Positions 8,262-23,538 of a stretch of 23,538 nucleotides of DNA are shown here, piece by piece (within the stretch, counting starts at the first letter, position 1; each line of letters opens with the position of its first letter). Source of the stretch: Bacillota bacterium (GTDB lineage: Bacteria > Bacillota_A > Clostridia > Peptostreptococcales > Anaerovoracaceae); assembly GCA_017437925.1 (NCBI GenBank), contig JAFRWQ010000264.1:1-23538 (forward strand). Reading direction: 5' to 3'. Position numbers and translations under genes: made by a program. The notes beneath the pieces are model-generated. The model was not told where the DNA came from, made no database searches, and saw only the letters and a program-made list of their open reading frames with translations.

Positions 8262-10607
8262 CTACCAGACGGAGACTCTGGTCTCGGGCTCGGTCCACAT
8301 GCCGTCTCCCGGGCCTATGCCGTAGGTCTCGTAGAACTCGTCCAGGGTCTGGAGCACCCTGTTGCAGCGCAGCTTGTCGGGGCTGTGCACGTCGATCTTG
8401 GAGAGCAGCTCTCTCACGGGCCTGGTGGTGGTCGATGCCCAGGTGTTGGCTATGGCCCTGAAGAGCGCGTCGTAATCGGGCTCCTTCTCGCGCTTTATTG
8501 CTTCGAGGAGGCAGCGGGCACTGCCCAGGTCGGCCACGTTCTCCGAGAGGGTGAGGTAGCCGCTGCACTCGATGCCCGGGTAGACCTCGACTCCCTCGTA
8601 CCACCGGATGACCTCCTCGCACTTGCCGGTGAAGGCCGCGTAATCCTCGGGGGTCCACCAGTCGGCGGCGTTGCCGTTCTCGTCGTACTTGGCGCCGTTG
8701 TTGTCGAAGGCGTGGGTGATTTCGTGGGCGATGATATAGCCTATGCCTCCCAGGTTCTCCTCGCGCTTGGCGTTCAGGTCGTAGAGAGGAGCCTGCAGTA
8801 TGGCGGCGGGGAAGGTGATGTCGTTGGAGGTTGCGCTGTAGCAGGCGTTGACGGTGTAGGGAGCCATGATCCAGCTGTCCTTTTCGACCTCTTCGAACTG
8901 TTTACTCACCATGAGGTCTATGGAGGCGGCCTGCAGGGCTATCACGTTGGAGAAGAAGCTTCCGCCTTCATCCGGGCTCAGCATTTCCACCCCGTCGAGG
9001 GAGTCGTCCCACTTATCGGGGTAGCCGACCTTGATCTTCATGGTATCGAGCTTGTGTATGGCCTTGGCCTTGGTCTCTTCGCTCATCCAGTCGAGGGCCG
9101 CTATGCGCTCCTTGTAGATGGCTATGAACTCCTTTATCATGTTCTCCACGTCGGCCTTGGCCTCCTCGGAGAAGTGGTTCTCGACGTATGCTCTGGCCAG
9201 GTAGACGGAGAGGAGGGAAGTGATCTGCTGGAAGGCGAGGGTCTGGGGATCCACGGCGGTCACTATGCCGTAGCACTCGTAGTTGAGGGCGTTGGCTGCG
9301 TCGGTGTATCCGCTTGTAAGAAGGCCTCCCACGCTTAAGAGAAGGTTCCTTAAGGCCATGGCCTTGAGGCAGCCCAGGCCTTCCTCGCTGAACATTGAGG
9401 CCGTGGCTTTCATGGCGCCCACGTCGGTGACCTTTATCCTGTCGGTCTTCTGAAGTCCGGAGCCTTCGTATACCCTGTCGAGATCGACTCCGGGGAAGAT
9501 CTCCTTGAGCTGATCCAGAGTGAATACATTGTAGGTCTTGTCCACGTCGCCGTATTCCTGGGGATCCATGGACGCGGCGGCTATGGTCTTTTCGCCTTCA
9601 AAGACGAGGGCGGCGCAGGCTTCCGCTTCTTCTTCGTCAAGGCCGGCCAGGCTGAAATAGGTCTTATTGAACCTGTCGTAGGGCTCCTTCTGGGGGCTCT
9701 CGCTCAGGTATACGTCCTTATCCATCAGAGTGCCCGGGGTGCTGAAGCTCACCATGTAGTGGTCGGAATCTCTGGAGTCGGTCGTGAGGCCGAAGCCCAG
9801 GAGTATGGAGAAGCGCAGTTCGTCGTTTAAGGCCATGTCGGCCGCGACCAGCTCCTCCACGGTCTTCGCGGTTACGAAGGCGTCTATGTATTTCTGTATG
9901 GGGGCGTTGCCTGCCTTTTCGCGGCCCTCCAGGTCCATTACAGACTCGTACAGGGCTTTGATCCTGGCTTCGGGGCTGCCCTTTTCCTGAGGATTTCCGA
10001 CTATCTCGGCGATAAGATCGAATATCTGGTTCTGGACGGTGACGGTGAGGCCGTAGAAGGGACCGTTGAGAGTGAGCCCCGCGGGGATGTCGGAATTCGC
10101 CAGCCACTCCTTGTTGACCGCCGCGTAGTAGTCGTCCTTGAGGTTGGTCCCCTTAAGGGCGTAGACCCGCTTCATGAGAAGCGTAAGATCCTCGCTGCTC
10201 AGGTGGTCTTTGGGCGAGAGGAGGCAGCTGCCGTCCCCGGCGAGGATGCCGGAGTTCAGCACGTCGGAAAGCTCCTCGACGGCCCACTGGGGGATGTCGC
10301 TGTAATCCTCCGCCGGAGCCGCGGAGCGGGCGTTGTCTCCCACAGGTTCTTCGAGGCCTCCAAAGGCCCTGCGTATCATAAGAAGGGCCTGGACCCTGGT
10401 GACCGGATCCTCAAGGCCCAGATTGCCGTCGCCGTAGCCGTGGACCACGTCGGACTGCTGCACTCCGGGATTGTAGTCCCCGGCAGCCAGCATGAGCATT
10501 TCAAGGGCTTCGCGCCTGGTCAGCTCCTCTGCCGCGTAGACGGGCAGGGCTCCTAGGACCAGTACCGCCGCAAGGATCAGGGCGGCAAAGCGTTTTGCTG
10601 TTTTCAT
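8262..10607 (-). CDS. Secreted M13-family (neprilysin/PepO-like) zinc metallopeptidase with SLH-like N-terminus
   Basis: This 781-residue protein has a signal peptide (MKTAKRFAALILAAVLVLGA, then PVYA). About 140 residues follow that resemble S-layer-homology repeats (LTRREALEML, then YSDIPQWAVEELSDVLNSGI). The rest is the M13 peptidase. Visible hallmarks are VNACYSATSNDITFPAAILQ (the substrate-binding NAxY block), zinc motif HEITH near residue 627, the third ligand Glu in ENVADLGS near residue 688, the SPDKLRCN segment, and the terminal MWTEPE...VW. M13 enzymes cut short peptides outside the cell. The SLH-like part may hold it on the cell wall, and it lengthens the protein by about 100-150 residues over typical PepO. 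GGAGG precedes the ATG, 27 bases after the TetR-type gene, so the two are probably one operon. Confidence 0.9.
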   Translation of the reverse strand: MKTAKRFAALILAAVLVLGALPVYAAEELTRREALEMLMLAAGDYNPGVQQSDVVHGYGDGNLGLEDPVTRVQALLMIRRAFGGLEEPVGDNARSAAPAEDYSDIPQWAVEELSDVLNSGILAGDGSCLLSPKDHLSSEDLTLLMKRVYALKGTNLKDDYYAAVNKEWLANSDIPAGLTLNGPFYGLTVTVQNQIFDLIAEIVGNPQEKGSPEARIKALYESVMDLEGREKAGNAPIQKYIDAFVTAKTVEELVAADMALNDELRFSILLGFGLTTDSRDSDHYMVSFSTPGTLMDKDVYLSESPQKEPYDRFNKTYFSLAGLDEEEAEACAALVFEGEKTIAAASMDPQEYGDVDKTYNVFTLDQLKEIFPGVDLDRVYEGSGLQKTDRIKVTDVGAMKATASMFSEEGLGCLKAMALRNLLLSVGGLLTSGYTDAANALNYECYGIVTAVDPQTLAFQQITSLLSVYLARAYVENHFSEEAKADVENMIKEFIAIYKERIAALDWMSEETKAKAIHKLDTMKIKVGYPDKWDDSLDGVEMLSPDEGGSFFSNVIALQAASIDLMVSKQFEEVEKDSWIMAPYTVNACYSATSNDITFPAAILQAPLYDLNAKREENLGGIGYIIAHEITHAFDNNGAKYDENGNAADWWTPEDYAAFTGKCEEVIRWYEGVEVYPGIECSGYLTLSENVADLGSARCLLEAIKREKEPDYDALFRAIANTWASTTTRPVRELLSKIDVHSPDKLRCNRVLQTLDEFYETYGIGPGDGMWTEPETRVSVW

Positions 10608-10634: not shown

Positions 10635-11258
10635 TTATCTATCGATCAGCTCTTTGAAAAGAGCGTCCCTGTCGAAATTGCCCTCGGCGAGCCCGGGTAT
10701 CTCCTTTAAGGCCTTGCAGACGGAAAGGCTAACCTCGGTGAAGACCGCCGACATCTCCCCGTCGCTGTAGGGGCAGCCGTCGGTGACTATCAGGGTGGCG
10801 AAGCTGAAGGCAAGGAGCCAGAGATCGCGGAAATACGATTCGGCGGACCGGGCGTCCATGCGGTATATGCTCATGACCGAGCCTATGGCCATATCGCGGG
10901 TCATCCTGAAGGCCTCCATGGCGCCTCCGGCAGTGCCGTCAGGCCTTGTGAGGAAAAGCAGCCTGTAGAGCCGGGGCTCGTCTTTGGCGAAGTTTATGAA
11001 CTGGCGGCCCACTCCAAGGAAGGGTATGGGCTCCTTAAGGCCCCGATCGACGTATTCCCTGTAGACCCCCTTGGCGGCTTCCCATACGTCGCGCCTCAGT
11101 AGGTCCATCGACTCGTACCAGGTGAAAATAGGGCGTGGGGAGGTGTTCAGGACGGCTGCGACCTCCCTCGCCGTCACGGCGTCTATACCCCTGTCTCTCG
11201 CGACGCCGAGGGCGGCTTCCACTATCTCTTCTTTTTGAAACTTTACTTTGGGTGGCAT
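10635..11258 (-). CDS. TetR/AcrR-family transcriptional regulator
   Basis: This 207-residue regulator has an N-terminal helix-turn-helix: QKEEIVEAALGVARDRGIDA, then TAREVAAVLNTSPRPIFTWY, the usual TetR layout (residues about 8-50). The C-terminal ligand domain is divergent and gives no ligand hint. An open frame extends 43 codons upstream, but AAGGGGG just before the ATG at 11258 and the promoter within that extension favour this shorter start. A good promoter and an inverted repeat covering the likely transcription start suggest autorepression. It lies directly upstream of the M13 peptidase and may control both itself and that gene. Confidence 0.85.
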   Translation of the reverse strand: MPPKVKFQKEEIVEAALGVARDRGIDAVTAREVAAVLNTSPRPIFTWYESMDLLRRDVWEAAKGVYREYVDRGLKEPIPFLGVGRQFINFAKDEPRLYRLLFLTRPDGTAGGAMEAFRMTRDMAIGSVMSIYRMDARSAESYFRDLWLLAFSFATLIVTDGCPYSDGEMSAVFTEVSLSVCKALKEIPGLAEGNFDRDALFKELIDR

Positions 11259-13355: not shown

Positions 13356-15152
13356 TTAAACTATCCCCTCCATGCGGAGCATCCTCCTGAGCTCCTCCAG
13401 ACTCTCGTCCTCGTCAAAGGGAAGGGACAGGGGAGCGTCGGTGTCGACGGGCCTTAAGCCGGGGCTGTTGTGCATGAACAGAGCGCTGACTTTGCTCACC
13501 AGCTCATCGTCGGGAGAGGGCCAGCATAAGATGTAATCGCCCTTTTCGAGGTCGAAGCAGACCCTGCCGCGTATGCCTTCTTCGGCCGCGCCGCAGTCTT
13601 CGGGCAGGACCAGCTTTCCGTTCTCCACCCGGCCCAGATCCCTGGATCTCTTAACGGCCTTGAGGCTGCCGTCGGGAAGGAGGGTCACGTTTCCTATGAG
13701 GTCCGACTCGCCCAGGACCAGGTCGAATATGTTAACATGCTCTTCGAGCTGCTTTTTTACCTGGTTTTTGAAGAGCTTTTCGGGTTCTTCTGTGAGCCTT
13801 TCCCAAAAGCGGGGCTTTCTGCTGAGCCTGCTCAAGAGCCCCAGATAGGAGCGGCTGAAGACGTCGGGATGGTCGAAGAACCTGCCCTTGCCGCAGAGGT
13901 AATTGTAGCGGAAGAGGGTGAACATCTGAGCGGATATGTCTTCTTCGGGCCCTATGCCCAGGCTTTCGATCAGCTTCAGTATATCCCTTGTGGGGAAGGC
14001 TGTCCCGCGGCTGAAGAGCCTCTTTTCGAAGGCCTTCGAGAATATCCTGTTCATGTCCTTGAGGCAGAGGCTGCTGTTTTCGGCTTCCCTGATGAATTCC
14101 CAGCGGGACCTGTTGGCGTTCAGCGAGAGGGCGTAGCTCCTTTCGGCCGCAAGGCTCATCATGGCGCTCCAGAAGACCGCCGAGATCTCGCCGGGTGAGG
14201 CGGGGCTCTTCGTCCCGTCGTAGGAGAGCCTGTATGGCAGGATGCTCCCGTTTGAGCTGCTTACGATTATATAGTCCTCTTCCAGGCGGCAGGCCAGGTC
14301 CTTTGTGCCTTTGAGAAGGGTCTTTACCTCGTCGTCCTTCATGAAGCAGAGGCTGTCCTCTTCCACGTCCTTGAAAACTATGCCTCCGCGGGGGACTGCT
14401 CCCACGATGCATATGCCCTGGAGTATCTCCTGATCCGCGGTCTTCACGTCGATGTGAAGGTAGGCGCAGGCTCCGTTGTAGCGGAAGTAGAGGTCGGACC
14501 CGCTCCTTACGATCTCGCCGGCCATGCCGCTCGAGATGAGATCGGCAGTCCCTATGCCGGGGCTGAAGCGCAGGTTTTCGGGCTTATCGAAGTACAGGGC
14601 TTTGCTCCTCTTGTCGTCGGTGAAGAAGAAGAGCAGATCGCTGCCGCAAAGGGCCCTGGGACCCCTGAACCTGTCAAGGGAGGAGGCGTATTCGCCGTAG
14701 TCCCCTGTGCTTATCTCTGACGCCGCCCCTATGAGCTCGTTCAGATCTCCGGGACGGAACCCCAGCGCGGCCTTGAGCTTTCTGTCGTCCTGCAGCGCCC
14801 TTACCAGCCAGGATACGGTCTTTACGGGGTCGAAGCACAGCAGCTCCGCGTCCCCCGCGTATTCCCTGTCGTCCCAGAGGACCGAATTCGACCTGTAGCG
14901 GACCCTGCCGTCCTCAAGAAATTCCACGGCGCGGAGGTCGTTCATGGCCAGCAGGGGAGCCAGGAGCTCCATGGTCTTGTCTTCAAGCAGGCCGCTGTCG
15001 TGCATGAAGCGCAGGGGCAGGGAGACGGCTTCGGAATCTATGTCCCTTTCGGAAAAGCTGTCCACCATCGAAGATATCAGTTCGCCCAGGCTCGGCGCCG
15101 CGCGGCGCGCGAAGCGTCCCGGGATATGCTCGCTAAGTATCCCTCTCATCAT
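13356..15152 (-). CDS. Large protein of unknown function, last gene of the ubiquitin-like/Lon cassette
   Basis: I do not recognise this 598-residue protein. It has no signal peptide, no membrane segment, and no Walker, zinc or obvious catalytic motif. The N-terminal 100 residues look helical, the middle has many alternating hydrophobic stretches (for example SDLLFFFTDDKRSKALYF and ACAYLHIDVKT) that look beta-rich, and the last 20 residues are acidic then helical (DEDESLEELRRML). Its ATG overlaps the stop of the Lon-type gene (ATGATGA), so the two are translationally coupled and probably act together. GGGAGG precedes the start. It could be an adaptor, a substrate-recognition factor or a partner of the protease; this is inference from position. 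Confidence 0.8.
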   Translation of the reverse strand: MMRGILSEHIPGRFARRAAPSLGELISSMVDSFSERDIDSEAVSLPLRFMHDSGLLEDKTMELLAPLLAMNDLRAVEFLEDGRVRYRSNSVLWDDREYAGDAELLCFDPVKTVSWLVRALQDDRKLKAALGFRPGDLNELIGAASEISTGDYGEYASSLDRFRGPRALCGSDLLFFFTDDKRSKALYFDKPENLRFSPGIGTADLISSGMAGEIVRSGSDLYFRYNGACAYLHIDVKTADQEILQGICIVGAVPRGGIVFKDVEEDSLCFMKDDEVKTLLKGTKDLACRLEEDYIIVSSSNGSILPYRLSYDGTKSPASPGEISAVFWSAMMSLAAERSYALSLNANRSRWEFIREAENSSLCLKDMNRIFSKAFEKRLFSRGTAFPTRDILKLIESLGIGPEEDISAQMFTLFRYNYLCGKGRFFDHPDVFSRSYLGLLSRLSRKPRFWERLTEEPEKLFKNQVKKQLEEHVNIFDLVLGESDLIGNVTLLPDGSLKAVKRSRDLGRVENGKLVLPEDCGAAEEGIRGRVCFDLEKGDYILCWPSPDDELVSKVSALFMHNSPGLRPVDTDAPLSLPFDEDESLEELRRMLRMEGIV

Positions 15153-18037
15153 CTCAGTTTCCTCCCTTCTTCCTTAAGACTGTGAAATTCCATGCCGGGG
15201 AAAAGCCCGCCGACCAGCTCCCCTACGTCGGACACGGGAACCACCTCCATGCCCTGATCGTCCAGGCAGCCCTCGGCCAGGGCCTCCTCGAAGTTCTCCC
15301 TGGGAACGTAGACCTTCCTGATGCCCGCGGCGGCCGCAGCCCTCAGCTTTTCCACGAAGCCTCCCACGGGGGCGATCTCGCCGTAGGCCTTGAGCTCTCC
15401 GGTGAGGGCTGTGTCGGGAAGAGAGAGTCCTGTCTTGTACGAGAGCAGGGCTGCCAGCAGGGCGGTGCCTGCCGAAGGTCCTTCCTTTTCGATGCCGGCG
15501 GGGGAGGAGTGGACGAAGACGCTGCCGGTATCCTCTCCCAGAAGCCTTGAAGCCACGTTCCTCGCCAGCTCAGCAGATTCAAGGTAGGATCCTTTGGCAA
15601 GGCCGGTCACCCTGCTGCGCTTTGAGGGATCCCCGCAGACCTCTATGTCTATTGTGGTCCCGACGTCCCCGCAGACCGCAAGGGCCGTGACCCTGCCGCA
15701 GCCCATCTTTCCGCAGGCCCTGGGCACGAGGGGCTTTCCCAGGCAGTCCCTTACGAAGAACTCGTCTATCTCGGGCTCTTTGCCGCTTAACACTGCCTTG
15801 CGGCTCGCCCTCTTGTAGAGGGTATCTATGCAGCGCTCCAGGTCTCTCACCCCTCCGGCCGGGTTGTAGCGGTCCACGAGTAGGGCGAGGATGTCGCCTT
15901 GGATCTCCCTTTCGCAGCCCAGCTCCTTCCTGATCCTGGGGGAGATGTAGTCCTTTGCGATGGTCAAGGCTTCCCTGCGGCTGTAGGACCTGAGCTGAGC
16001 GACGCGGCAGCGGTTGAGCAGGGGGTAGGGGATCTTCGTAAGGTCGTTGGCTGTGCAGATGAAGAGGAGATCGTCGGTGGAGTACATGCACTCGTAGTAG
16101 GCGTCTCTCGCGTTCTGCTGGTCGAAGATGTTGTAGAGCACGTTGTGCAGGGCCGGCACGCCGGGCTTGTCCAGCTCGTCTATGATGACCACGGCGGAGA
16201 GGCTGCTCACGTTTTTGGCGCAGAGGCTGCCCAGAAGGCCGGGTTTGAGCTCCGGGAAGCCGCTGATCTCCCTGGGGTCGGTGATCTGGTTGAAGGGTAT
16301 GTGTATCACGGGGACCCCGAGGGCTTCGGCGACGGCGTCTGCGAAGAGGGTCTTTCCTACTCCGGCGGGACCGCTGAGTATGATGGGGGTCAGGCGGTTC
16401 GCCGGATTCTTTTCGTGGGCCCAGATCTGGTCGGCCACGGTATCGAGGGGCTTGTCCATGCCGTAGACCTTCTTTTTTACCTCATTAAGATTCACCAGGC
16501 CTTCCGAGAAGCTGCGGCGGCGCAGGTTGCCCAGGTCCACCAGCTTCTTTTCGATCTTCTTCCTGTCTTCGGCGGAGGCATTGTCGTAGTCGTCCAGGAG
16601 CTCCGCCACCCTTTCCCTGACGCCCGGGTCCATCTCGTCCCTGCAGAGAATGAAGCGGTTCCTGACGCCCAGGGCGGTTCTGGCGGGGGAAGCGCAGATG
16701 CTCTCCTTGTCCCTGAGAAGGGTGTAGTATTCGGGAAGGTCTTCTCTTTCGACTCTTACAGTCCCTTCGGGTATCCTGCTCATGATCTCCCAGACTATGG
16801 TCTTCATATGGAGCACGTTGCCGGCCCTGGAATACTTAAGGGCGATGTCTTCCTTTACTTCCTCGCTGAAAGTGACCCCGTCCCCCGTCCTTCCGTTCTC
16901 CTCTTCAAAGCGCTCCTTCCAGAAATCGACGTAACCGATCATCTCTTCATCGCTGTATTCGCAGGCTTCCATCACCGTCATCTCCGAGCTGTCCAGGCAG
17001 GCAAGGCGGTCGCAGTTCTCGGCGGTGAAGAATACCCAGACCGAAGAGGTGTCCACGTCGGAGGCCAGAAGCTCGTTCTTGTAGACCCCGCTGACCAGGG
17101 GCTGGAAGGCCAGGAGCACGTCGTCGCTCTTGATCTTGTCTATGTCCTTGATCAGCATGGCGCCCTGGCCGGCGGTCGAAAGCATCTCGGCAAAGGATCC
17201 CACAGTGGCGTTGGAGTAGACCGTGCTGCTTCCCACTATGGGAGCCACGTCGTAGAGCCCCGCGCAGGAAAAGGACGCGGTCTTAAGGCCCGATAAGGAG
17301 CAGAATTCAAGGATCAGCCTTTCCATATCCCTTCCCCTGCGGCCCGTCAGGGCGAACCTGGGGGCTCTGTGGAGGGGGTCGTTCTGGTACTTGGCCAGGG
17401 CCCGGCAGAGCAGGTCCTTGATGGGAGCCTGGCCGATGAAGCGCCTGTCCAGCTCATCCCTTATGCGGGACACGTCGGCGGTCAGCACCGAAAGGTCGGC
17501 TCCGTTGATGAAGTTGACGTAGAAGGCCAGCTGCTTCATGATGCGGCTCCTCTCGTCGCCGTCGGCGCTGTCAAAGCGGGACATGAGGCTTTCGATGCGG
17601 GCCCTCCGGGAGGCGGTGTACTTGCTGTGGAGCACCGCGAACTTGGCTTTGAGCTCTTCGAGGGAGCTCATGCTGAGGTCCTTCGCGTTCTCCTCCCCGG
17701 GGCTTGCCAGATGGTCGCCTATGTTTCCCTCCTGGCTGATCAGGCCCGAGATCTTCCCCCGGGGCATGTTCTCAACCACCGAGAGCAGGCGGGTGTAGAC
17801 CTCCATGTCGCCTCCTGCGAACTCCCTGATCTTTTCGTCTATGCGGCAGAGCCTGACCGAGACCACGCTTACGACCGGGGTGATGATGGAGGAGGGGAGG
17901 TAGGTGATCTCTATGGGGTTGCCCTCGAAGCGGCGGGCGCTCCAGTAGTCGGCGCAGCGGTTGGTCTTGAGGACTGTTGCGCTGCCGTCTTCGGCTTCAA
18001 GCCTTATTTCTGAAACGAGGGGAGTGATCTCCTTCAC
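15149..18037 (-). CDS. Lon-type ATP-dependent protease with tandem AAA+ modules (N-terminus interrupted, see next entry)
   Basis: The continuous frame gives 962 residues. Residues about 190-340 look like an AAA+ module whose Walker A is lost (ALTGRRGRD) but which keeps a Walker-B-like MLIKDIDK and a sensor-like VWVFFTAEN. A second AAA+ module near 550-720 is intact: GPAGVGKT, VVIIDELDK, LLFICTAND, PLLNRCRV (Arg finger region) and sensor-2 GGVRDLERCI. The C-terminal S16 Lon protease domain has the nucleophile Ser in EGPSAG (near 855) and the partner Lys in GGFVEKLRAA (near 895), so it should be active. The usual Lon N-domain is absent. The frame opens with GTG at 18037 without its own ribosome binding site. 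The upstream fragment with a strong site is probably its true beginning. It ends overlapping the 598-residue gene. The protein would unfold and cut proteins, plausibly those marked by the neighbouring ubiquitin-like system. Confidence 0.88.
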   Translation of the reverse strand: MKEITPLVSEIRLEAEDGSATVLKTNRCADYWSARRFEGNPIEITYLPSSIITPVVSVVSVRLCRIDEKIREFAGGDMEVYTRLLSVVENMPRGKISGLISQEGNIGDHLASPGEENAKDLSMSSLEELKAKFAVLHSKYTASRRARIESLMSRFDSADGDERSRIMKQLAFYVNFINGADLSVLTADVSRIRDELDRRFIGQAPIKDLLCRALAKYQNDPLHRAPRFALTGRRGRDMERLILEFCSLSGLKTASFSCAGLYDVAPIVGSSTVYSNATVGSFAEMLSTAGQGAMLIKDIDKIKSDDVLLAFQPLVSGVYKNELLASDVDTSSVWVFFTAENCDRLACLDSSEMTVMEACEYSDEEMIGYVDFWKERFEEENGRTGDGVTFSEEVKEDIALKYSRAGNVLHMKTIVWEIMSRIPEGTVRVEREDLPEYYTLLRDKESICASPARTALGVRNRFILCRDEMDPGVRERVAELLDDYDNASAEDRKKIEKKLVDLGNLRRRSFSEGLVNLNEVKKKVYGMDKPLDTVADQIWAHEKNPANRLTPIILSGPAGVGKTLFADAVAEALGVPVIHIPFNQITDPREISGFPELKPGLLGSLCAKNVSSLSAVVIIDELDKPGVPALHNVLYNIFDQQNARDAYYECMYSTDDLLFICTANDLTKIPYPLLNRCRVAQLRSYSRREALTIAKDYISPRIRKELGCEREIQGDILALLVDRYNPAGGVRDLERCIDTLYKRASRKAVLSGKEPEIDEFFVRDCLGKPLVPRACGKMGCGRVTALAVCGDVGTTIDIEVCGDPSKRSRVTGLAKGSYLESAELARNVASRLLGEDTGSVFVHSSPAGIEKEGPSAGTALLAALLSYKTGLSLPDTALTGELKAYGEIAPVGGFVEKLRAAAAAGIRKVYVPRENFEEALAEGCLDDQGMEVVPVSDVGELVGGLFPGMEFHSLKEEGRKLR

Positions 18038-18147
18038 CGATACCAGTTTTCCGGAAGCCTTGAGCCTCTCGGGGCATCCTTGTCGTTCAGCTCCCTGTTG
18101 ATCGCCGTGATCAGAGCTTCGCTGCTGATGATCCTGTCTCTGTTCAT
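18034..18147 (-). pseudogene. N-terminal fragment of the Lon-type gene, cut off by an apparent one-base frameshift
   Basis: A 37-codon frame starts at ATG 18147 behind AAAGGAGG, the best ribosome binding site near the Lon-type gene. It reads MNRDRIISSEALITAINREL and then NDKDA before a run of four G on the plus strand (18071-18074). After that run, the frame that reads sensibly is the Lon frame (PERLKASGKLVSVKEI). One extra C in the run would fuse both into a protein of about 999 residues. As the sequence stands, the fragment stops at a TGA overlapping the GTG of the large frame (GTGA). Either this is a base error or mutation, or a short upstream peptide truly couples to a GTG start. I favour the frameshift. 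Confidence 0.6.
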
Positions 18148-18221
18148 TTGTTTTCCTCCTTTCGGTTTATGCGCGTTCTTTCGGCGCGGCTTTGCGCGTT
18201 TATATCAGTCTCTTCCGCCCG

Positions 18222-18833
18222 TCATATCACGGTAAGAGCGGGAAGGCTCGCGGCTCCGCCCAGCATCGAGGCCTCGGCGAAAAGCACGAATCTCATCATA
18301 TCCGGCATGAAGAGCATCACCGTGATGACGGTCAAACTGTAGTATACGGGTCCCTGCAGCAGGTCGCGGTGGACCAGGTCCAGCAGTTCTTCGACGGTCC
18401 AGGCATTCCTGGTGCACTGCATGAGGCTGTCGTCGCGCAGTATGTCCCTTATCTGAAAGGCGCTTACGGCCAGGGGGTAGGCGGTGACGTAGACTGCCAG
18501 TATGCCCAGGGACAGGGGGCCGTTCGTCATGAGGGCGTACCTGCTGTAGGCGAAGGGGAGCAGGGGCAGGAAGATCGCGAAGGCGGTCTTGGTCCTGAAG
18601 TCCCTTTTAAGGCCCAGCATTATGAGGACCCAGCCGCAGCCCAGGATGAAGACGGAGCCGCAGAGCAGCCAGAGCCTTCTGCCGCAGAATATGAAGCTTC
18701 CGAGGCGCACGACCAGGGGAAGGACGCCCAGCTTCATGCCCGCCGCGATGACAGCGGCCGAGGCCGCCGCGCAGAGCAGGGAATAGAGGGCCGCCTTTTG
18801 CCACTCCCTTAAGGTGATGACGATCTCTTTCAT
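18222..18833 (-). CDS. Multi-pass membrane protein of unknown function in the ubiquitin-like cassette
   Basis: This 203-residue protein has about five hydrophobic stretches long enough to cross the membrane: ALYSLLCAAASAAVIAAG, LWLLCGSVFILGCGWVLIML, TAFAIFLPLLPFAY, LSLGILAVYVTAYPLAV and YSLTVITVMLFMP. Between the fourth and fifth is a cytoplasmic-looking charged loop (FQIRDILRDDS through VEELLDLVHRD). No family was recognised. AAAAGGAGG precedes the ATG, 22 bases after the transglutaminase-like gene. It may anchor the system at the membrane; that is inference. The stop is followed by 74 bases before the Lon-type N-terminal fragment. Confidence 0.78.
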   Translation of the reverse strand: MKEIVITLREWQKAALYSLLCAAASAAVIAAGMKLGVLPLVVRLGSFIFCGRRLWLLCGSVFILGCGWVLIMLGLKRDFRTKTAFAIFLPLLPFAYSRYALMTNGPLSLGILAVYVTAYPLAVSAFQIRDILRDDSLMQCTRNAWTVEELLDLVHRDLLQGPVYYSLTVITVMLFMPDMMRFVLFAEASMLGGAASLPALTVI

Positions 18834-18855
18834 TTTCTTTCCTCCTTTTGTATGC

Positions 18856-19623
18856 TCAGGCTCCGGCTTTTTCGCTGCCGCGGGGCTCTGCCGCCAGCTC
18901 CTCTATCCCGGGCTCGTCTCCCTCGTAGCCCATTAGCCTGAGTCTCGCGGGATTCATCAGGACCGGCTGAAGGACAGGGCCTTTGGCGGCGGAGCAGATG
19001 AGAGAAGTGACGTCTATGTAGAGAGGGCGGCCCCTTGATTCCACTATGTTCCAGGCGTGGGGGGTGCCGCCGAGCTTTCCCATGACCAGGGCGCAGGGGA
19101 CTTCCATGTGCTGGCAGTAGAGCAGGTAGAGCTTGGCTATGCCCTCGCAGACCGAAAGTCCGTCGCTCAGGGCCCCGTATATCGAGTGGTACATAAGGGC
19201 ATTCGCGTTCTCGCCCTCCTTGTAGCGTATGTCCTTTGCCATCTCCAGGGCTATGGCCCTGCTGAGCCTTGCTTTCGGCGTGTTTTTGAGCCTCTGCCTC
19301 ATGTCCTGTATGCTGTTCTCCGCCCTGTGGACCCCCGAGGTGATGAAGCGCATATCGCTGAGAAGCAGGTCGAACATGACGCCCAGGCACCTTCCCGTTC
19401 CGGGCAGTACGGCCTTCCTGTAGGTCCAGAAATCCACGTAGAAGAGCTCGGGATGGTCTCTGTGGACCGCCCTCACGGCGGCGTCGGCGTCCTTTGGGCT
19501 CACCGGGGCGTCGAAGAGCACGGTGGTCTTTAAGGCGAAGAGCTCTTCAGCGATCTTTCTGTAGGCAGCCTTCTGAGGACCGCTTAAGAAGGACCTGTAC
19601 TGGGTCGGTGCTATTGCGCTCAT
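18856..19623 (-). CDS. Transglutaminase-like (papain-fold) cysteine protein
   Basis: This 255-residue protein has a transglutaminase-core arrangement in its second half. A Cys near residue 158 sits in GLSVCEGIAKLYLLY, a His near 187 in TPHAWNIVE and an Asp near 203 in LYIDVTS. This is the order and spacing of the Cys-His-Asp triad in bacterial transglutaminase-like peptidases. The first 150 residues are largely helical, with a block HRDHPELFYVDFW that often precedes such domains in Bacillota. No signal peptide is present, so it acts inside the cell. GGAGG precedes the ATG. In this company it may act as a peptidase on the ubiquitin-like tag, a maturation enzyme, or a cross-linker; the sequence does not choose among them. 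Confidence 0.82.
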   Translation of the reverse strand: MSAIAPTQYRSFLSGPQKAAYRKIAEELFALKTTVLFDAPVSPKDADAAVRAVHRDHPELFYVDFWTYRKAVLPGTGRCLGVMFDLLLSDMRFITSGVHRAENSIQDMRQRLKNTPKARLSRAIALEMAKDIRYKEGENANALMYHSIYGALSDGLSVCEGIAKLYLLYCQHMEVPCALVMGKLGGTPHAWNIVESRGRPLYIDVTSLICSAAKGPVLQPVLMNPARLRLMGYEGDEPGIEELAAEPRGSEKAGA

Positions 19624-19651
19624 GCTTCCTCCTTTCCGCCGCGGGCGGGGC

Positions 19652-19945
19652 CTACCAGCTGTGGTGGCAGACCCCGCAGACCCAGCGGGGTCCGTCCGCG
19701 GTCACGGTCTCCGTAATATCGCTTCCGGAGCTGTGGCAGACCGGGCACCAGCGGGCTCTCACGTTCCTCACCAGGCCCGGGCTGTCCGTCTCCAGGGCGT
19801 GAAGGCTCGGCGGTCTGTAATCGCTGTCCGGGAGAATCCGGAGCGGGGCCCTGGCCCTGTAATCCGGGTCCGGAGTTATTACTATGCGCCGGGGGACCCT
19901 GTATGTGGGGTCGGGCTCGATGCGTATGACCGTCCTTTCGTCCAT
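19652..19945 (-). CDS. Small zinc-ribbon protein with P-D-x-x-Y-R repeats
   Basis: This 97-residue protein has two parts. The first 50 residues hold three imperfect repeats, EPDPTYRVPRR, TPDPDYRARAP and LPDSDYRPP. The last 32 form a zinc ribbon with Cys-Pro-Val-Cys and Cys-Gly-Val-Cys pairs separated by about 20 residues (WCPVC ... WVCGVC). I recognise no family beyond the ribbon. Its ATG follows the stop of the JAMM gene directly (TAGATG), with its ribosome binding site inside that gene's last codons, so the two are tightly coupled. A role as an adaptor or substrate-recognition factor, possibly RING-like in placement, is speculative; a single two-Cys-pair ribbon is not a RING. Confidence 0.8.
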   Translation of the reverse strand: MDERTVIRIEPDPTYRVPRRIVITPDPDYRARAPLRILPDSDYRPPSLHALETDSPGLVRNVRARWCPVCHSSGSDITETVTADGPRWVCGVCHHSW

Positions 19946-20596
19946 CTACTGCCTCCTTCTGCTCCTGCGCTTCCTGCGGCGCCTTTCGCGCTGCCTTTTC
20001 ATCCTCTTTTCGTAGCGTATCTGCCCGGGGCTCTTTTCCTTTTCGGCCCTGCGGGGCTTACCTGAGGCTGGAGCGAAGATCTCGCGGGCGTCCAAAGGGT
20101 ACATTATGCCGGGGATCTCGGTCTCCGAGGGCCCCAGGAAGACCTTCCAGTCCCCGGAGTGGGGGTTGAGTATGACCGTGAGGTCGTCGGGCTTGCCGAA
20201 GTGGTCGCGTATGTTCTCGCGGTCGACGCTGCTTACGAAGACCGGAGTCCCGAAGGTGTGGCTGTGGACCCAGCCCAGGCGGACGAAGCCGGTGCGCAGC
20301 GGTTCCGGTATCTCCTCGTCCCTGATGCGCCGGTACTCCCTCTGGAGCCTGATGTTCTCCTCGGGCGGCCAGTAAAGGTAGGAGGGGGTCCCCCTGCAGC
20401 CCGCCGCCGGTATGAAGTGGGTCGCGAGAGCCCTGGTCCTTCCGGGCTTTGCGCTTTCGTAGAAGCCCAGTATCCAGCCGCCCTTTTCGACCCGGTTGTC
20501 GCGCCTCTCTTCGCCGACCCCGAAGTATTCTTTGATGTCCCTTCCCGCCTTGGGCAGAAAGCGGAGAAGGTCTCCCGTGCTGCTGTAGTATCCCAT
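19946..20596 (-). CDS. JAMM/JAB1-MPN metalloprotease (deubiquitinase-like isopeptidase) with Arg-rich tail
   Basis: This 216-residue protein carries a JAMM zinc-protease motif: Glu37 in VEKGGWILG, then His111-x-His113 (GWVHSHTFG), Ser122 and Asp125 in VSSVDREN. The FVSSVD block resembles AMSH-type deubiquitinases; the spacing between the second His and Ser is one residue longer than in AMSH. Such enzymes remove ubiquitin-like tags or trim their precursors. The last 40 residues are extremely basic, dominated by Arg and Lys, and could bind nucleic acid, ribosome or acidic membrane. GGGAGG precedes the ATG, two bases after the E1-like stop. The position after E1, E2 and Ubl genes supports a tag-removal role. 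Confidence 0.9.
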   Translation of the reverse strand: MGYYSSTGDLLRFLPKAGRDIKEYFGVGEERRDNRVEKGGWILGFYESAKPGRTRALATHFIPAAGCRGTPSYLYWPPEENIRLQREYRRIRDEEIPEPLRTGFVRLGWVHSHTFGTPVFVSSVDRENIRDHFGKPDDLTVILNPHSGDWKVFLGPSETEIPGIMYPLDAREIFAPASGKPRRAEKEKSPGQIRYEKRMKRQRERRRRKRRSRRRQ

Positions 20597-20598
20597 CG

Positions 20599-21885
20599 CT
20601 ATACCTCCCTTTCCGCCGCGGGCTCTGCTTCCGTTATCTGCGGGATCACCGCCTTCTCGTCGCCGTCGAGCTCGAGGAAAAGGGGCAGTCTGGCCTCGTC
20701 TTCGTGATCGAATTCGACTATGTGGAGCGGGGGGATGCCTATCTCCTTAAGGCTCATCCCCAGGACCTTTTCTTCGGTCCTTCCCAGGCTGAAGTCGTAG
20801 ACCCGCTGAGAGTTCGAGGGAAAAAGGGGCTCGCGGCCTTCCTCTTTGCACCTGCCGCAGAGCAGGTCGCTGTCGAGAAGGGTGAACTGGGGCCTGTAGA
20901 TCTCTATGGGGCTGCGGCAGCTCTTGCAAAAGCCCGTGGTGACGAAGGCCCTGTTGCTGATGGGAATGCAGTCCTTTTCGAGGGAGAGCCTGTAGCCTTC
21001 GCCGTAGATCCCGGCGACCTTTTCCAGGACGCTTCCCAGCTTCTCATCGGCGGAAAGGCCCGAGGACCTTACTCCGCCCAGCTCTGCGTAATTGATGTGG
21101 TTATCGCAGTCGGCCCTTAAGGGGATGTTGAAGTTCATCAGCTTTCTCGCCCCCGAGCTGTAGCTGCTGAGCACCCCGTACCTGGGGTCGTAGAGCTTGC
21201 TGTCCGGGAACTTTTCATTGTGGAGGATCTTGATCGCGGCCTCCGCGGCCATGGCTCCCGCCTGGGCCGCCGAGGTGATGATGGTGGCGGCGCGGCCCTC
21301 CTTCGCTCCTTCTCTTAAGGTCACGTCGCAGCTGTTCCTGACCCTGATCAGGGCGTCTTCCCTTGCCCGGGGTGTCATGGTGCAGGCGTAGCAGGGCGTA
21401 TCCTTTTCGGGGGACGAGGTGAAGAGGGTCCAGTTGAAGCCGTCTATGCCCACGTCCACGCAGGGCTTTCCCAAAAGCTTGCACACGCGGCTCACGTAGA
21501 GCCTGGTCTGGTGGTTGTCCACGCAGTTGATGACGATGTCGCAGCGCCTTAAGACTCCCTCGCCCAGGCCGGTGCACACGTCCGCCGCCAGCCAGTCGGC
21601 CCTGGGGGCTTTGACGACGCTGAGCCTCTTAAAGCCTTCCGCCGCCAACCGCGCCTTGGACTCGCCTATGTCCGCCCGGGAAAAGAGGACGGTCCCGGGA
21701 AGGTTGGTGTCGCTGACATGGTCCATGTCTGCGACGAAGAGGGCGGAAAAGCCGGTAAGGGCCAGATTCTTGATGACCTCGTTGGCGGTCCTGCCCGCTC
21801 CTATTACTCCTATGACCGCGCTGTCGATGAGGCTCTGCTTAAAGCCTTCTATCCTCTCCTGACGGTCTGTGATCGATTTGCTCAT
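20599..21885 (-). CDS. E1/ThiF/MoeB-like ubiquitin-activating enzyme with C-terminal zinc knuckle
   Basis: This 428-residue adenylating enzyme has a Rossmann ATP-binding loop VIGAGRTANEVIKNLALTG (residues 27-45). It also has the VADMDHVSDTNL strand end and the DIGESKA segment, all typical of E1-like proteins, and Asp123 in NCVDNHQTR matches the Mg-ATP Asp. A Cys pair TPCYACT (165-168) matches the ThiF/MoeB PCYxC position. The usual NLNRQ Arg is replaced (NLPGT), and the third Gly of the loop is Ala. A late zinc knuckle (CKSC and CGRC about 25 residues apart) and about 90 further residues extend the protein. AAGGAGG fixes the start at 21885 rather than the longer frame. It should adenylate the C-terminus of the upstream Ubl and pass it to the E2-like protein. 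Confidence 0.9.
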   Translation of the reverse strand: MSKSITDRQERIEGFKQSLIDSAVIGVIGAGRTANEVIKNLALTGFSALFVADMDHVSDTNLPGTVLFSRADIGESKARLAAEGFKRLSVVKAPRADWLAADVCTGLGEGVLRRCDIVINCVDNHQTRLYVSRVCKLLGKPCVDVGIDGFNWTLFTSSPEKDTPCYACTMTPRAREDALIRVRNSCDVTLREGAKEGRAATIITSAAQAGAMAAEAAIKILHNEKFPDSKLYDPRYGVLSSYSSGARKLMNFNIPLRADCDNHINYAELGGVRSSGLSADEKLGSVLEKVAGIYGEGYRLSLEKDCIPISNRAFVTTGFCKSCRSPIEIYRPQFTLLDSDLLCGRCKEEGREPLFPSNSQRVYDFSLGRTEEKVLGMSLKEIGIPPLHIVEFDHEDEARLPLFLELDGDEKAVIPQITEAEPAAEREV

Positions 21886-21914
21886 TTTCTGACCTCCTTC
21901 GCGCTTTTCTTCAT

Positions 21915-21941
21915 CGGGGCGGACGCCCGCGGCCCGCCCCG
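21915..21941 (-). other. GC-rich hairpin between the Ubl and E1 genes
   Basis: Arms cggggcgg and ccgccccg pair over 8 bp around an 11-base loop in the 105-base gap between the Ubl stop and the E1 start. No T-run follows on either strand, so it is not a normal terminator. It could protect the 3' end of a shorter Ubl mRNA. Confidence 0.45.
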
Positions 21942-21990
21942 GCTCCCTGTTCAACGTGCATTTCCGCGTTCTTTGCGCGGGGCCTTCCCT

Positions 21991-22236
21991 CTATCCGGCC
22001 TTGGCCGCGGTGGCTACGTGGAGCACGTCCTTGTCCCGGATGCCGTTCTCGGCCAGGGTCTTGGCCTGGTCGAGGGCGTCCTCGGACTTGTTCTTCATGA
22101 CCAGCAGGTTCTGGCCGGCGGGGACCATTCTTCTCTCGCCCAGCTGGCGGAGCAGGTCTCCCAGGATGATGTCGGTCTGGGTGCTGATCTCGTTTTCGTC
22201 GGCGTCATAGCAGACTGTGATGTTGATGGTTTCCAT
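21991..22236 (-). CDS. Ubiquitin-like beta-grasp protein (Ubl, YukD/EsaB-like)
   Basis: This 81-residue protein has the right size and pattern for ubiquitin. It opens with a beta hairpin (INITVCYDADENEIS), then the main helix (ILGDLLRQLGE), a strand with LLVMKNK, and the end block LAENGIRDKDVLHVA. That block corresponds to the 'tL.e.gI.dgd.lh' close of Ubl and YukD proteins. The C-terminus is a flexible AAKAG, so it ends in one exposed Gly rather than Gly-Gly. This is compatible with adenylation by the downstream E1 without prior trimming. It sits between the E2-like and E1-like genes. GGAGG lies seven bases before the ATG. It is the likely protein tag of the system. Confidence 0.85.
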   Translation of the reverse strand: METINITVCYDADENEISTQTDIILGDLLRQLGERRMVPAGQNLLVMKNKSEDALDQAKTLAENGIRDKDVLHVATAAKAG

Positions 22237-22297
22237 AGTGCGCCTCCTTTGCTTTTGAGCGTTTTATCCGGTTTTGACTGTTTTGCTCAGGCGGCCC

Positions 22298-22852
22298 TCA
22301 GTACTCCGGAGGAGTGGGGAAGTCCGCCTTTCTGACGGGGAATTGGGACATGTGGCTGCGGTAGTATTCGTCGGCTTCCGAGTTGGCCGGCAGCTCTCCC
22401 TGCTTGTTTCCGCTGTAGCCCGTGTATTCGGGGTTTCCCAGCAGCAGCTGGCCCACTATGTTGAACCACTGCCACAGGAAGAGGCTCGGTCTGTAGAGTC
22501 CTCCGAAGCATATGGCTCCGCTGGAGAACACGTTGGGGAGGAAGGGCCTGCGGCCGGAGCTTATCTCGGCGGCCGGCATCATGTTGGGGTAGTCGGGGCC
22601 GAGGGTGAAGCGGAGGGTGATGCTCTCCTGGTTCTTTATCCCCTTGACCCGCTTGTCTCCGGAGAAAAGGGGAGTGCTGTACTCCGCGACCGGCGCCGTA
22701 TCCTTGTAGGTCACCAGGTAGACCCGGTGGATCCCGTCGGGGGGATCGTCCGCGGGGACCCAGCTGTACTGGCTGTTGAAGGGGACCCGCTTCAGGGCTT
22801 CGTATTCGTTCTTCAGTCTCGTGGTCTTCTGCAGTGATGTCAGGCTCGGCAT
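22298..22852 (-). CDS. E2-like ubiquitin-conjugating enzyme (UBC fold)
   Basis: This 184-residue protein shows the UBC core in order. There is an N-terminal helix (LQKTTRLKNEYEALKRV), a central strand block ending ITLRFTLGPDYPNMMPAAEI (the YP-x-x-P motif, residues 88-93), and the active-site block FLPNVFSSGAICFGG with Cys115. After it comes the W-containing helix RPSLFLWQWFNIVGQLLLGN, as in true E2 enzymes. The spacing from Pro-Asn to the Cys is exactly that of eukaryotic E2s, but the His of HPN is Leu. The protein is slightly longer than a minimal E2, with a polar C-terminal tail. AAGGAGG precedes the ATG. It should receive the Ubl from the E1-like enzyme and pass it to targets; no E3 is recognisable nearby. 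Confidence 0.88.
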   Translation of the reverse strand: MPSLTSLQKTTRLKNEYEALKRVPFNSQYSWVPADDPPDGIHRVYLVTYKDTAPVAEYSTPLFSGDKRVKGIKNQESITLRFTLGPDYPNMMPAAEISSGRRPFLPNVFSSGAICFGGLYRPSLFLWQWFNIVGQLLLGNPEYTGYSGNKQGELPANSEADEYYRSHMSQFPVRKADFPTPPEY

Positions 22853-22873
22853 GGTATCCGCCTCCTTCTTTTG

Positions 22874-23095
22874 CTATCTGTGCTTCACCCAGCGGGTGAG
22901 CCTGCCGTTTTCGTCGATGTAAAGGTCGAAGCTCACGTGGCCCTTGCCGCTTTCCTCGCTGTCGATGTTGACCTCGATGTAATCTCCGTGGTCCTTCATC
23001 ACGTAGTTGTCTCCGACATAGATGCCTTCGTAGCGGGCCGCTTCCTTTACCGCCATCTCGATGGAGTAGTCCGACGGTCTGACCTATCTTTTCAT
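22874..23095 (-). pseudogene. Small protein of unknown function, first gene of the cassette, with an amber codon at codon 4
   Basis: ATG at 23095 stands behind AAAGGAG with good spacing, but codon 4 is TAG (23084-23086). The same frame then continues through VRPSDYSIEMAVKEAARYEG to a natural stop, 73 codons in total. Internal ATG 23056 could give a 60-residue product but lacks a ribosome binding site. The later part looks like a small beta-rich fold (YIEVNIDSEESGKGHVSFDL, then YIDENGRLTRW). I recognise no family. TAG is a normal stop for many genes here, so recoding is unlikely. A point mutation, base error or low-level internal start fit better. It is 21 bases upstream of the E2-like gene. 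Confidence 0.6.
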
Positions 23096-23250: not shown

Positions 23251-23538
23251 ATGACCGAATACATAAAGATCACGGACAACTGCATAATCAAGATAGAGTA
23301 CGAAGGAAACAGCGGCTCGGGCCCCGTGCGCGCCCTGACCGTGATCAGGGACGGAGCGGAGACCGAGCCCAGAAAGCAGGTCTGCTCGTTCATACGCGCC
23401 CTGGTCGACGCAAGGAAGACCAGGAAGGACGGATATCTTTCCCTTGACAGGGCGAAGGCTGAGATCTGGGCCGAAGACTATCTGGCGGTCGATACCTCCG
23501 AGAGCTTCAAAAAAGTCCTGCGGGACACCAGGGCCAGC
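23251..23538 (+). CDS. Divergent gene of unknown function, possibly winged-helix regulator (3' truncated by window edge)
   Basis: Ninety-six codons are visible from an ATG behind GCGGAGG, running off the right edge. Residues 1-33 look like a short beta-rich head (YIKITDNCIIKIEY). Residues about 45-95 contain QVCSFIRALVDARKTR, GYLSLDRAKAEIWAED and SFKKVLRDTRA, an order that resembles the winged-helix domain of transcriptional activators (helix, recognition region with 'a..iW', then a conserved LR-type helix). The similarity is by eye and modest. The gene is transcribed away from the cassette and shares its intergenic region, so it could be the local regulator. No stop is seen. Confidence 0.6.
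   Translation, partial: MTEYIKITDNCIIKIEYEGNSGSGPVRALTVIRDGAETEPRKQVCSFIRALVDARKTRKDGYLSLDRAKAEIWAEDYLAVDTSESFKKVLRDTRAS

Follow-up and report, generated by a model that had tools for sequence, protein, structure and literature searches.

The stretch analysed here, contig JAFRWQ010000264.1 of the Bacillota bacterium assembly GCA_017437925.1 (23,538 nt; hereafter the window), contains a cassette of ten co-directional genes on the minus strand between positions 23,095 and 13,356. Read 5′ to 3′ these encode a small protein, an E2-like protein, a ubiquitin-like protein (Ubl), an E1-like protein, a JAMM isopeptidase, a zinc-ribbon protein, a transglutaminase-like protein, a membrane protein, a Lon-type protease and a 598-residue protein (Table 1). 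All ten genes reported in a preliminary description of this DNA, with their short gaps and overlaps, were recovered. Intergenic gaps range from 0 to ~105 nt, the gap preceding the Lon open reading frame (ORF) is 184 nt as listed and 74 nt to the expected start, and the Lon and 598-residue genes overlap by 4 nt. Because the same gene order recurs in two relatives, L001 and L002, whose E1 proteins are 67 % and 59 % identical to that of the window, the arrangement is more than chance, and the data support a complete set of Ubl, E1, E2 and JAMM genes in physical linkage with a dedicated Lon. ARAGORN identified no tRNA in the window and no Rfam family scored above its gathering score.

Table 1 Features of the cassette and of the divergent gene beside it (ORF, open reading frame; aa, amino acids)
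Feature	Position	Strand	Remarks
Small protein	22874..23095	-	60 aa from internal ATG 23,056
E2-like	22298..22852	-	184 aa; Cys115; LPN instead of HPN
Ubl	21991..22236	-	81 aa; C-terminus ...AAKAG
E1-like	20599..21885	-	428 aa; single ThiF domain and Cys-pair C-terminal region; candidate catalytic Cys186
JAMM isopeptidase	19946..20596	-	216 aa; Arg-rich tail
Zinc-ribbon protein	19652..19945	-	97 aa; three spaced xIxPDPxY-type repeats (14 residues apart), then four-Cys zinc ribbon
Transglutaminase-like protein	18856..19623	-	255 aa; Cys159-His189-Asp204
Membrane protein	18222..18833	-	203 aa; hydrophobic segments read from translation
Lon-type protease	15149..18147	-	ORF as listed 15149-18037 (GTG, 962 aa); expected ATG start 18,147, other frame
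598-aa protein	13356..15152	-	No family assigned; middle part weakly beta-propeller-like
Regulator-like gene, 5′ end	23251..23538	+	First 96 codons, cut by window end; P-loop ISAPPGYGKT

Eight of the cassette genes are open and the remaining two carry lesions. By comparison with intact relatives the Lon gene has one frameshift ~70-80 nt after its expected start, leaving the listed ORF ~37 N-terminal residues shorter than its counterparts (999-1000 aa), while in the small gene an in-frame TAG occupies codon 4, counted from the start used in relatives (23,095). These lesions may be real or may be assembly errors. Recoding of the TAG was considered and is not evident, TAG being the terminator of 10 of the 21 window genes checked.

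Searches with single sequences against Pfam gave strong matches for E1 (ThiF, E = 5.7e-32, measured on a 451-aa version with a TTG start), Lon (Lon_C, 1.5e-17; AAA, 7.7e-15) and the transglutaminase-like protein (Transglut_core, 1.2e-6), with E2, Ubl and JAMM below cut-off. The identities of these last three were settled with small family alignments used as profiles; all three alignments take in the distant row L031, and that of the Ubl also the distant L030, and these rows help the matches. Each component shows the features expected of Ubl conjugation, namely a nucleotide motif and cysteine in E1, the E2 fold and cysteine, a C-terminal glycine in the Ubl and the Glu, HxH and S..D residues of JAMM. 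The start of E1 was taken as ATG 21,885, within ~1 residue of which its nearest relatives P0013 and P0014 begin. Its profile matches Uba1 (E = 3.2e-30), and Cys186, Lys77, Asp123 and six CxxC-type cysteines show no variation across the 33 rows aligned, drawn from the 59 E1s found. The single E2 sequence matches UQ_con at E = 0.0038 and its profile matches UBE2A, of the UBE2A/Rad6 type, at 4.4e-10. Cys115, already singled out in the preliminary description, is confirmed and is invariant in 6/6 rows; the HPN site reads LPN in the window, L001 and L002 and HPN in L003, L004 and L031. The Ubl profile matches polyubiquitin, ubiquitin and NEDD8 chains, with single natural ubiquitin from E = 4.8e-4. 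The AG pair is invariant in all seven rows and is followed by one or two residues in four of them; the protein ends in AG in the window, L001 and L004, and the two further residues in L002 (SI) and L003 (TS) would fit with trimming. Alone, the JAMM sequence matches Prok-JAB at only 0.02, and as a profile it matches an N11-like protein (E = 4.4e-11) and RPN11 (1.5e-8). Its Glu37, H111/H113 and S122..D125 are invariant in 6/6 rows.

The Lon-type protein has the hallmarks of the S16 Lon family, AAA+ Walker A and B motifs and a Ser-Lys dyad. It had been described as a tandem-AAA+ protease; two AAA+-like modules are indeed present in the ORF and a Walker A motif occurs in the second only. The first module is degenerate, with GRRGRD at 232-237, and the second is of active type (K562, D620/E621), followed by the protease dyad Ser855-Lys897; K562, D620/E621, S855 and K897 are invariant in three of three sequences. 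A structure model of low confidence matches Lon and other AAA+ proteins. In the searches made, a Lon with a degenerate AAA+ module ahead of an active one was found only in these cassettes, a provisional result.

The best conserved member of the cassette is the small protein, with 88 % identity to L002 (59 aa), where E1 reaches 59 %, and 76 % to L001 (63 aa). It matched no Pfam family above cut-off, and its conservation points to a partner under tight constraint or to a dedicated target. Repeats in the zinc-ribbon protein vary in number (three in the window and L001, four in L002, two in L003) and the four ribbon cysteines are invariant in 4/4 sequences; from this combination of a variable motif array and a ribbon we predict a scaffold or an E3-like adaptor. 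The transglutaminase-like protein matches PDB entry 9crn (E = 2.5e-13) and its Cys-His-Asp triad is likewise invariant in 4/4. The membrane protein is 43 % identical to that of L001 and 29 % to that of L002. In L002 (L002:13110-14252) it is extended by a C-terminal domain bearing an HEVKH zinc-peptidase-like motif; the domain is lacking in the window and L001, and the L002 protein gave no NCBIfam, Pfam or PADLOC match.

To follow the cassette among relatives we utilized a pattern scan built on the E1 alignment, which across a collection of 84,980 species returned 13 loci, four of them near (L001-L004). These four belong to metagenome-assembled genomes (MAGs), rumen-type or related: Tb.RUG.137, RGIG2707 from goat omasum, RUG12811 and RGIG4831 from roe deer rumen; L001 and L002 fall in the same genus. 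L002 has all ten genes in the same order, its Lon being 60 % and its 598-residue protein counterpart 38 % identical to those of the window. L001 has nine genes and its contig ends inside Lon; in the same genome the 598-residue gene lies on another contig, at its very edge (match to position 11,019 of 11,020). A fourth locus is inferred from a shared contig size, as P0002 (598-residue protein), P0004 (Lon) and P0013 (E1) each lie on a contig of 64,482. Within this E1 clade Lon and the 598-residue gene are therefore present in four of four loci of known context, of which one is inferred and one is split across contigs; the gene context of five sister E1s (P0016-P0020) is not included in this count. 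The four Lon-linked E1s group together with support of 100/99 in a tree of 34 rows, comprising 33 of the 59 E1s (window included) and L004; 26 were left out, P0067-P0070 among them, and two long branches, L004 and P0066, join each other in the tree.

Outside the clade the core occurs by itself. L003 contains E2, Ubl, E1, JAMM, zinc-ribbon and transglutaminase genes followed by other genes, and L004 keeps E2-Ubl-E1-JAMM. In neither of these MAG assemblies was a 598-residue gene or a Lon covering the N-terminal half of the cassette type found, their genomes matching Lon only at profile positions 525-983. As both loci keep the core without Lon and the 598-residue gene, the Lon coupling is clade-specific and not universal. 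Homologous operons of this sort had been named in the preliminary description as refuting its claim, and they do occur outside the clade; within it the link to Lon is kept. The wider unit appears to be the Ubl/E1/E2/JAMM core, with Lon and the 598-residue protein forming a clade-specific module. Behind the core of L003, from a Lachnospiraceae genome, lies a different downstream set (L003:6562-14803) encoding proteins of 286, 123, 517, 154, 525 and >1,005 residues. The 286-, 517-, 525- and 1,005-residue proteins had no Pfam match, and the set is perhaps another effector module of the family.

Presence is patchy. Genomes with a match numbered 7 of 393 in the order of genome G002 and 5 of 392 in that of G003, 3 of 296 and 4 of 299 in the respective families, 2 of 6 in the genus of G001 and G002, and 1 of 24 in the genus of G003; the small protein was matched in 1 of 119 genomes. 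These figures come from 1,555 genome look-ups, repeats included. Beyond G001-G004, E1 matches were found in 11 genomes (L030-L040), all distant. Rarity is provisional, as the protein searches scored only ~8,000 word-sharing candidates and the 38 % relative in L002 at first went unlisted.

Divergent from the cassette is a gene of which the window holds the 5′ end. In the relatives it encodes ~1,050 aa, with L001 and L002 54.7 % identical over 1,040 residues, and the window part is 56 % identical to both (95 aa and 93 aa respectively). AAA_22 was matched in L002 only (E = 0.0037) and a PDB search gave no match; the product is probably a winged-helix protein with a STAND/MalT-like NTPase and repeats. 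Beyond this gene L001 and L002 both have family-5 solute-binding proteins and an EamA transporter, and in L002 a piece of a solute-binding gene directly follows the 598-residue gene. On the L001-genome contig that carries the 598-residue gene there are dpp/opp-type transporter genes, dppB being 92 % and oppF 95 % identical to those of the window, which lie ~9 kb from the 598-residue gene, separated from it by AMP-ligase, TetR-like, M13-peptidase and other genes. From these shared transporter neighbours we infer that the window organism is close to the genus of L001 and L002 and that the location of the cassette was inherited. The M13 (neprilysin-like) peptidase, at window positions 8262-10607, has an apparent signal peptide and lies near the oligopeptide-transporter genes.

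We propose that the cluster is a tag-and-degrade pathway, in which target proteins would receive the Ubl and Lon would then unfold and degrade them, and give this a probability of roughly 45 %. It is favoured because the JAMM is of Rpn11 type, because the Lon is a dedicated, additional one with a degenerate front AAA+ module, and because tagging set and Lon are linked in the clade. Gene order, active-site residues, domain identity and linkage within one clade are established directly; conjugation, substrates and contact between Ubl and Lon are predicted. Of the preliminary reading of "tag, then unfold and degrade", the complete set beside a dedicated Lon is borne out and degradation dependent on the tag stays a proposal. 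In such a pathway the divergent regulator would switch the operon on, E1 would activate the C-terminal glycine of the Ubl through Cys186, and E2 would transfer the Ubl through Cys115 with the zinc-ribbon repeat protein acting as scaffold or E3 substitute. Docking of tagged clients would fall to the first, inactive AAA+ module of Lon, for which the 598-residue protein may be a receptor partner. JAMM would trim Ubl precursors and, in the manner of Rpn11 at the proteasome, recycle the tag at the Lon protease. The membrane and transglutaminase-like proteins might serve to localise the system to the membrane, or might act on conjugates by cleaving or modifying them. A more elaborate form, put forward tentatively, is an analogue of the ubiquitin-proteasome route that evolved apart from proteasomes, with E1 and E2 attaching the Ubl, an Rpn11-like JAMM recycling it, a duplicated Lon whose first AAA+ ring would be the receptor degrading targets with the propeller-like 598-residue partner, and a divergent STAND-type sensor in control. 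If true, the tag-and-degrade pathway would give bacteria a counterpart of the ubiquitin-proteasome route. Since both halves adjoin in one clade and the tagging half stands alone in its neighbours, a link from Ubl to a processive protease in bacteria outside Pup is directly testable.

Several observations weigh against this proposal. The core in L003 and L004, without Lon or the 598-residue gene, implies that tagging does not need the cassette Lon, and when the tree labels were shuffled all four Lon rows fell together in 74 of 500 cases, a consequence of only 6 of the 34 tree rows having known context. A 26.5-kb contig is available for the P0018 cluster, but a fourth Lon of the cassette type was not found. 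Lon is less conserved to L001 (59 % over 503 aa) than is E1 (67 %). The first AAA+ module has a mean predicted local distance difference test score (pLDDT) of 53 in the model and template modelling scores (TM-scores) of only ~0.26, an hhalign probability of 22.6 %, E = 0.35 with a smaller profile, and no signal in one of three shuffle tests (347/500). A Pfam scan recognised no Ubl-binding domain in Lon, and the window copy itself has the frameshift at the Lon start and the early stop in the small gene.

The occurrence of the core without the cassette Lon speaks for the main alternative, in which the Ubl would be a reversible regulatory mark on one dedicated target (a regulator, the membrane protein or Lon itself), switching its activity as in type II CBASS (cyclic oligonucleotide-based antiphage signalling system), with Lon a separate effector or a housekeeper that clears spent parts and is not directed by the tag. 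This has a precedent in the ubiquitin-like conjugation of bacterial cGAS-like enzymes, as far as the excerpts of PMC10097602 and PMC10449767 go. We consider it less likely than tag-and-degrade, though the strongest of the alternatives, since Lon and the 598-residue gene accompany the core in four of four loci of the Lon clade and the JAMM comes nearest, among proteins of solved structure, to those of Rpn11 type.

An antiphage system comparable to Bub, or to Bil with its antiphage role, in which the Ubl would mark virion parts and Lon would kill the infected cell or degrade phage proteins, appears improbable. Bil is itself a Ubl/E1/E2/JAMM operon in the excerpted text of PMC11354881, presence of the cassette is patchy (two of six genomes of the genus), and PADLOC gave weak matches of E1 to E1-E2 models (4.3e-5) and BilD (0.0027), of the Ubl to BilA (0.0071) and of E2 to E1-E2 (0.037), together with matches of Lon to DolB (8.8e-15, the strongest for any cassette protein, confined to the AAA+ 2 part at residues 514-664) and to CARF-LON (0.0016). 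However, PADLOC on seven flanking window proteins, the regulators of both relatives and the L002 membrane protein returned shared-domain matches only, the strongest being those of an ABC ATPase to mad3 (5e-23) and of a RidA-like protein to PD-T4-2_B (1.9e-16), and the transporter neighbours common to one genus point to vertical inheritance. The 86 pattern matches in viral contigs included no relative, three phage records matched with none covering more than 37 % of E1, and one of 53 plasmid records reaches 82 % coverage at 28.5 % identity. With PADLOC matches at domain level only and no near relative in phages or viral contigs, the earlier hint at an antiphage function finds little support. 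A sulfur carrier or cofactor pathway of the ThiS/MoaD/Urm1 type with incidental protease genes is very improbable: JAMM and ThiF proteins also occur in sulfur pathways and E1 matches ThiF, MoeB and UbaA models too, below their cut-offs, but such chemistry has no place for an E2-like protein with an invariant cysteine and, the cassette ThiF excepted, none of the 22 window proteins scanned matches a thiamine or molybdopterin biosynthesis family.

Among known systems, a protein tag is linked to an AAA+ protease in the Pup-proteasome and in the SAMP/archaeal ubiquitin systems; Pup uses other ligase chemistry, and for the SAMP/archaeal systems we know of no E2-Lon operon. Operons of the Prok-RING type are reportedly those of Burroughs 2011. 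Relatives of this type (L030-L040) have ThiF E1s 24.6-30.3 % identical to that of the window in 11 of 11 loci, a UQ_con E2 and JAB in L031, and a Ubl with AG near its end in all four read (L030, L031, L036 and L037). They differ from the cassette in a Prok-RING_1 zinc protein (L031 and L036) and an FHA-fused E2 (L030, L036 and L037), and no Lon of the cassette type was present in the stretches of L030-L040 examined. The distant Ubl-E1-E2-JAB-RING set of L031 adjoins 2-ketoacid oxidoreductase and acetokinase-family genes, these families having been read in L031, and L032-L035 have a similar layout by gene sizes. With LonA, the bacterial and mitochondrial form (TIGR00763), the cassette Lon shares AAA+ 2, the lid and the Ser-Lys protease; it scores 187.5, below the cut-off of 608.05, does not match the LON substrate-binding N-domain (PF02190) and has the extra degenerate AAA+ in front.

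Operons of Ubl, E1, E2 and JAB have been known since 2006, and type 6d of Iyer et al. comprises Ub-like, JAB, E1-like, E2-like and alpha-helical proteins (PMC1779556, here and below in excerpt). As in the cassette, Ubl, JAB, E1-like and E2-like proteins are encoded by separate genes, in hosts including Bacillus species, whereas the excerpted description mentions neither a Lon nor a transglutaminase, zinc-ribbon repeat protein or cassette-type regulator. The type 6d E2 lacks the HPN histidine but has an invariant histidine after the cysteine (PMC1779556); the four genes are present in the window and its E2 also lacks the HPN histidine, and no histidine after the cysteine is invariant in the six rows. 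BilABCD similarly combines Ubl, E1, E2 and JAMM in one operon, its JAMM exposing the C-terminal glycine of the Ubl, and as excerpted (PMC11354881) has two Ubl domains in BilA, two adenylation domains in BilD and a CEHH motif in BilB. Assignment of the cassette to it was rejected, as there is one Ubl (81 aa), a 428-aa E1 with one ThiF stretch and no CEHH, the window E2 having R, S and Q at Cys+6, +8 and +13, with Lon and the 598-residue protein in addition.

A search of Creative Commons-licensed PubMed Central papers, important papers being outside this scope, found no Lon-Ubl operon, in agreement with the preliminary statement that this exact gene set is undescribed. The combination of a Ubl set with a protease-family tandem AAA+ protein is nevertheless known. 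FtsH-ternary systems (vWA-MoxR subsystem 3), as presented in the excerpts of PMC7159879, place a complete Ubl conjugation set with JAB beside a two-AAA+ protease-family protein whose first AAA+ is dead, along with extra operon proteins of unassigned family. They differ in having an FtsH-type protein instead of Lon, a Ubl fused to E2 and EAD1, and vWA, MoxR, RING E3 and caspase-like effectors; membership was rejected for the cassette, where the matches of the modelled protease are to Lon and other AAA+ proteins and the ten proteins gave no vWA, RING or caspase Pfam family. As FtsH-ternary systems already join a Ubl set to a half-dead tandem AAA+ of a protease family, the cassette is not a new category, and on the excerpts available they are its closest published parallel.
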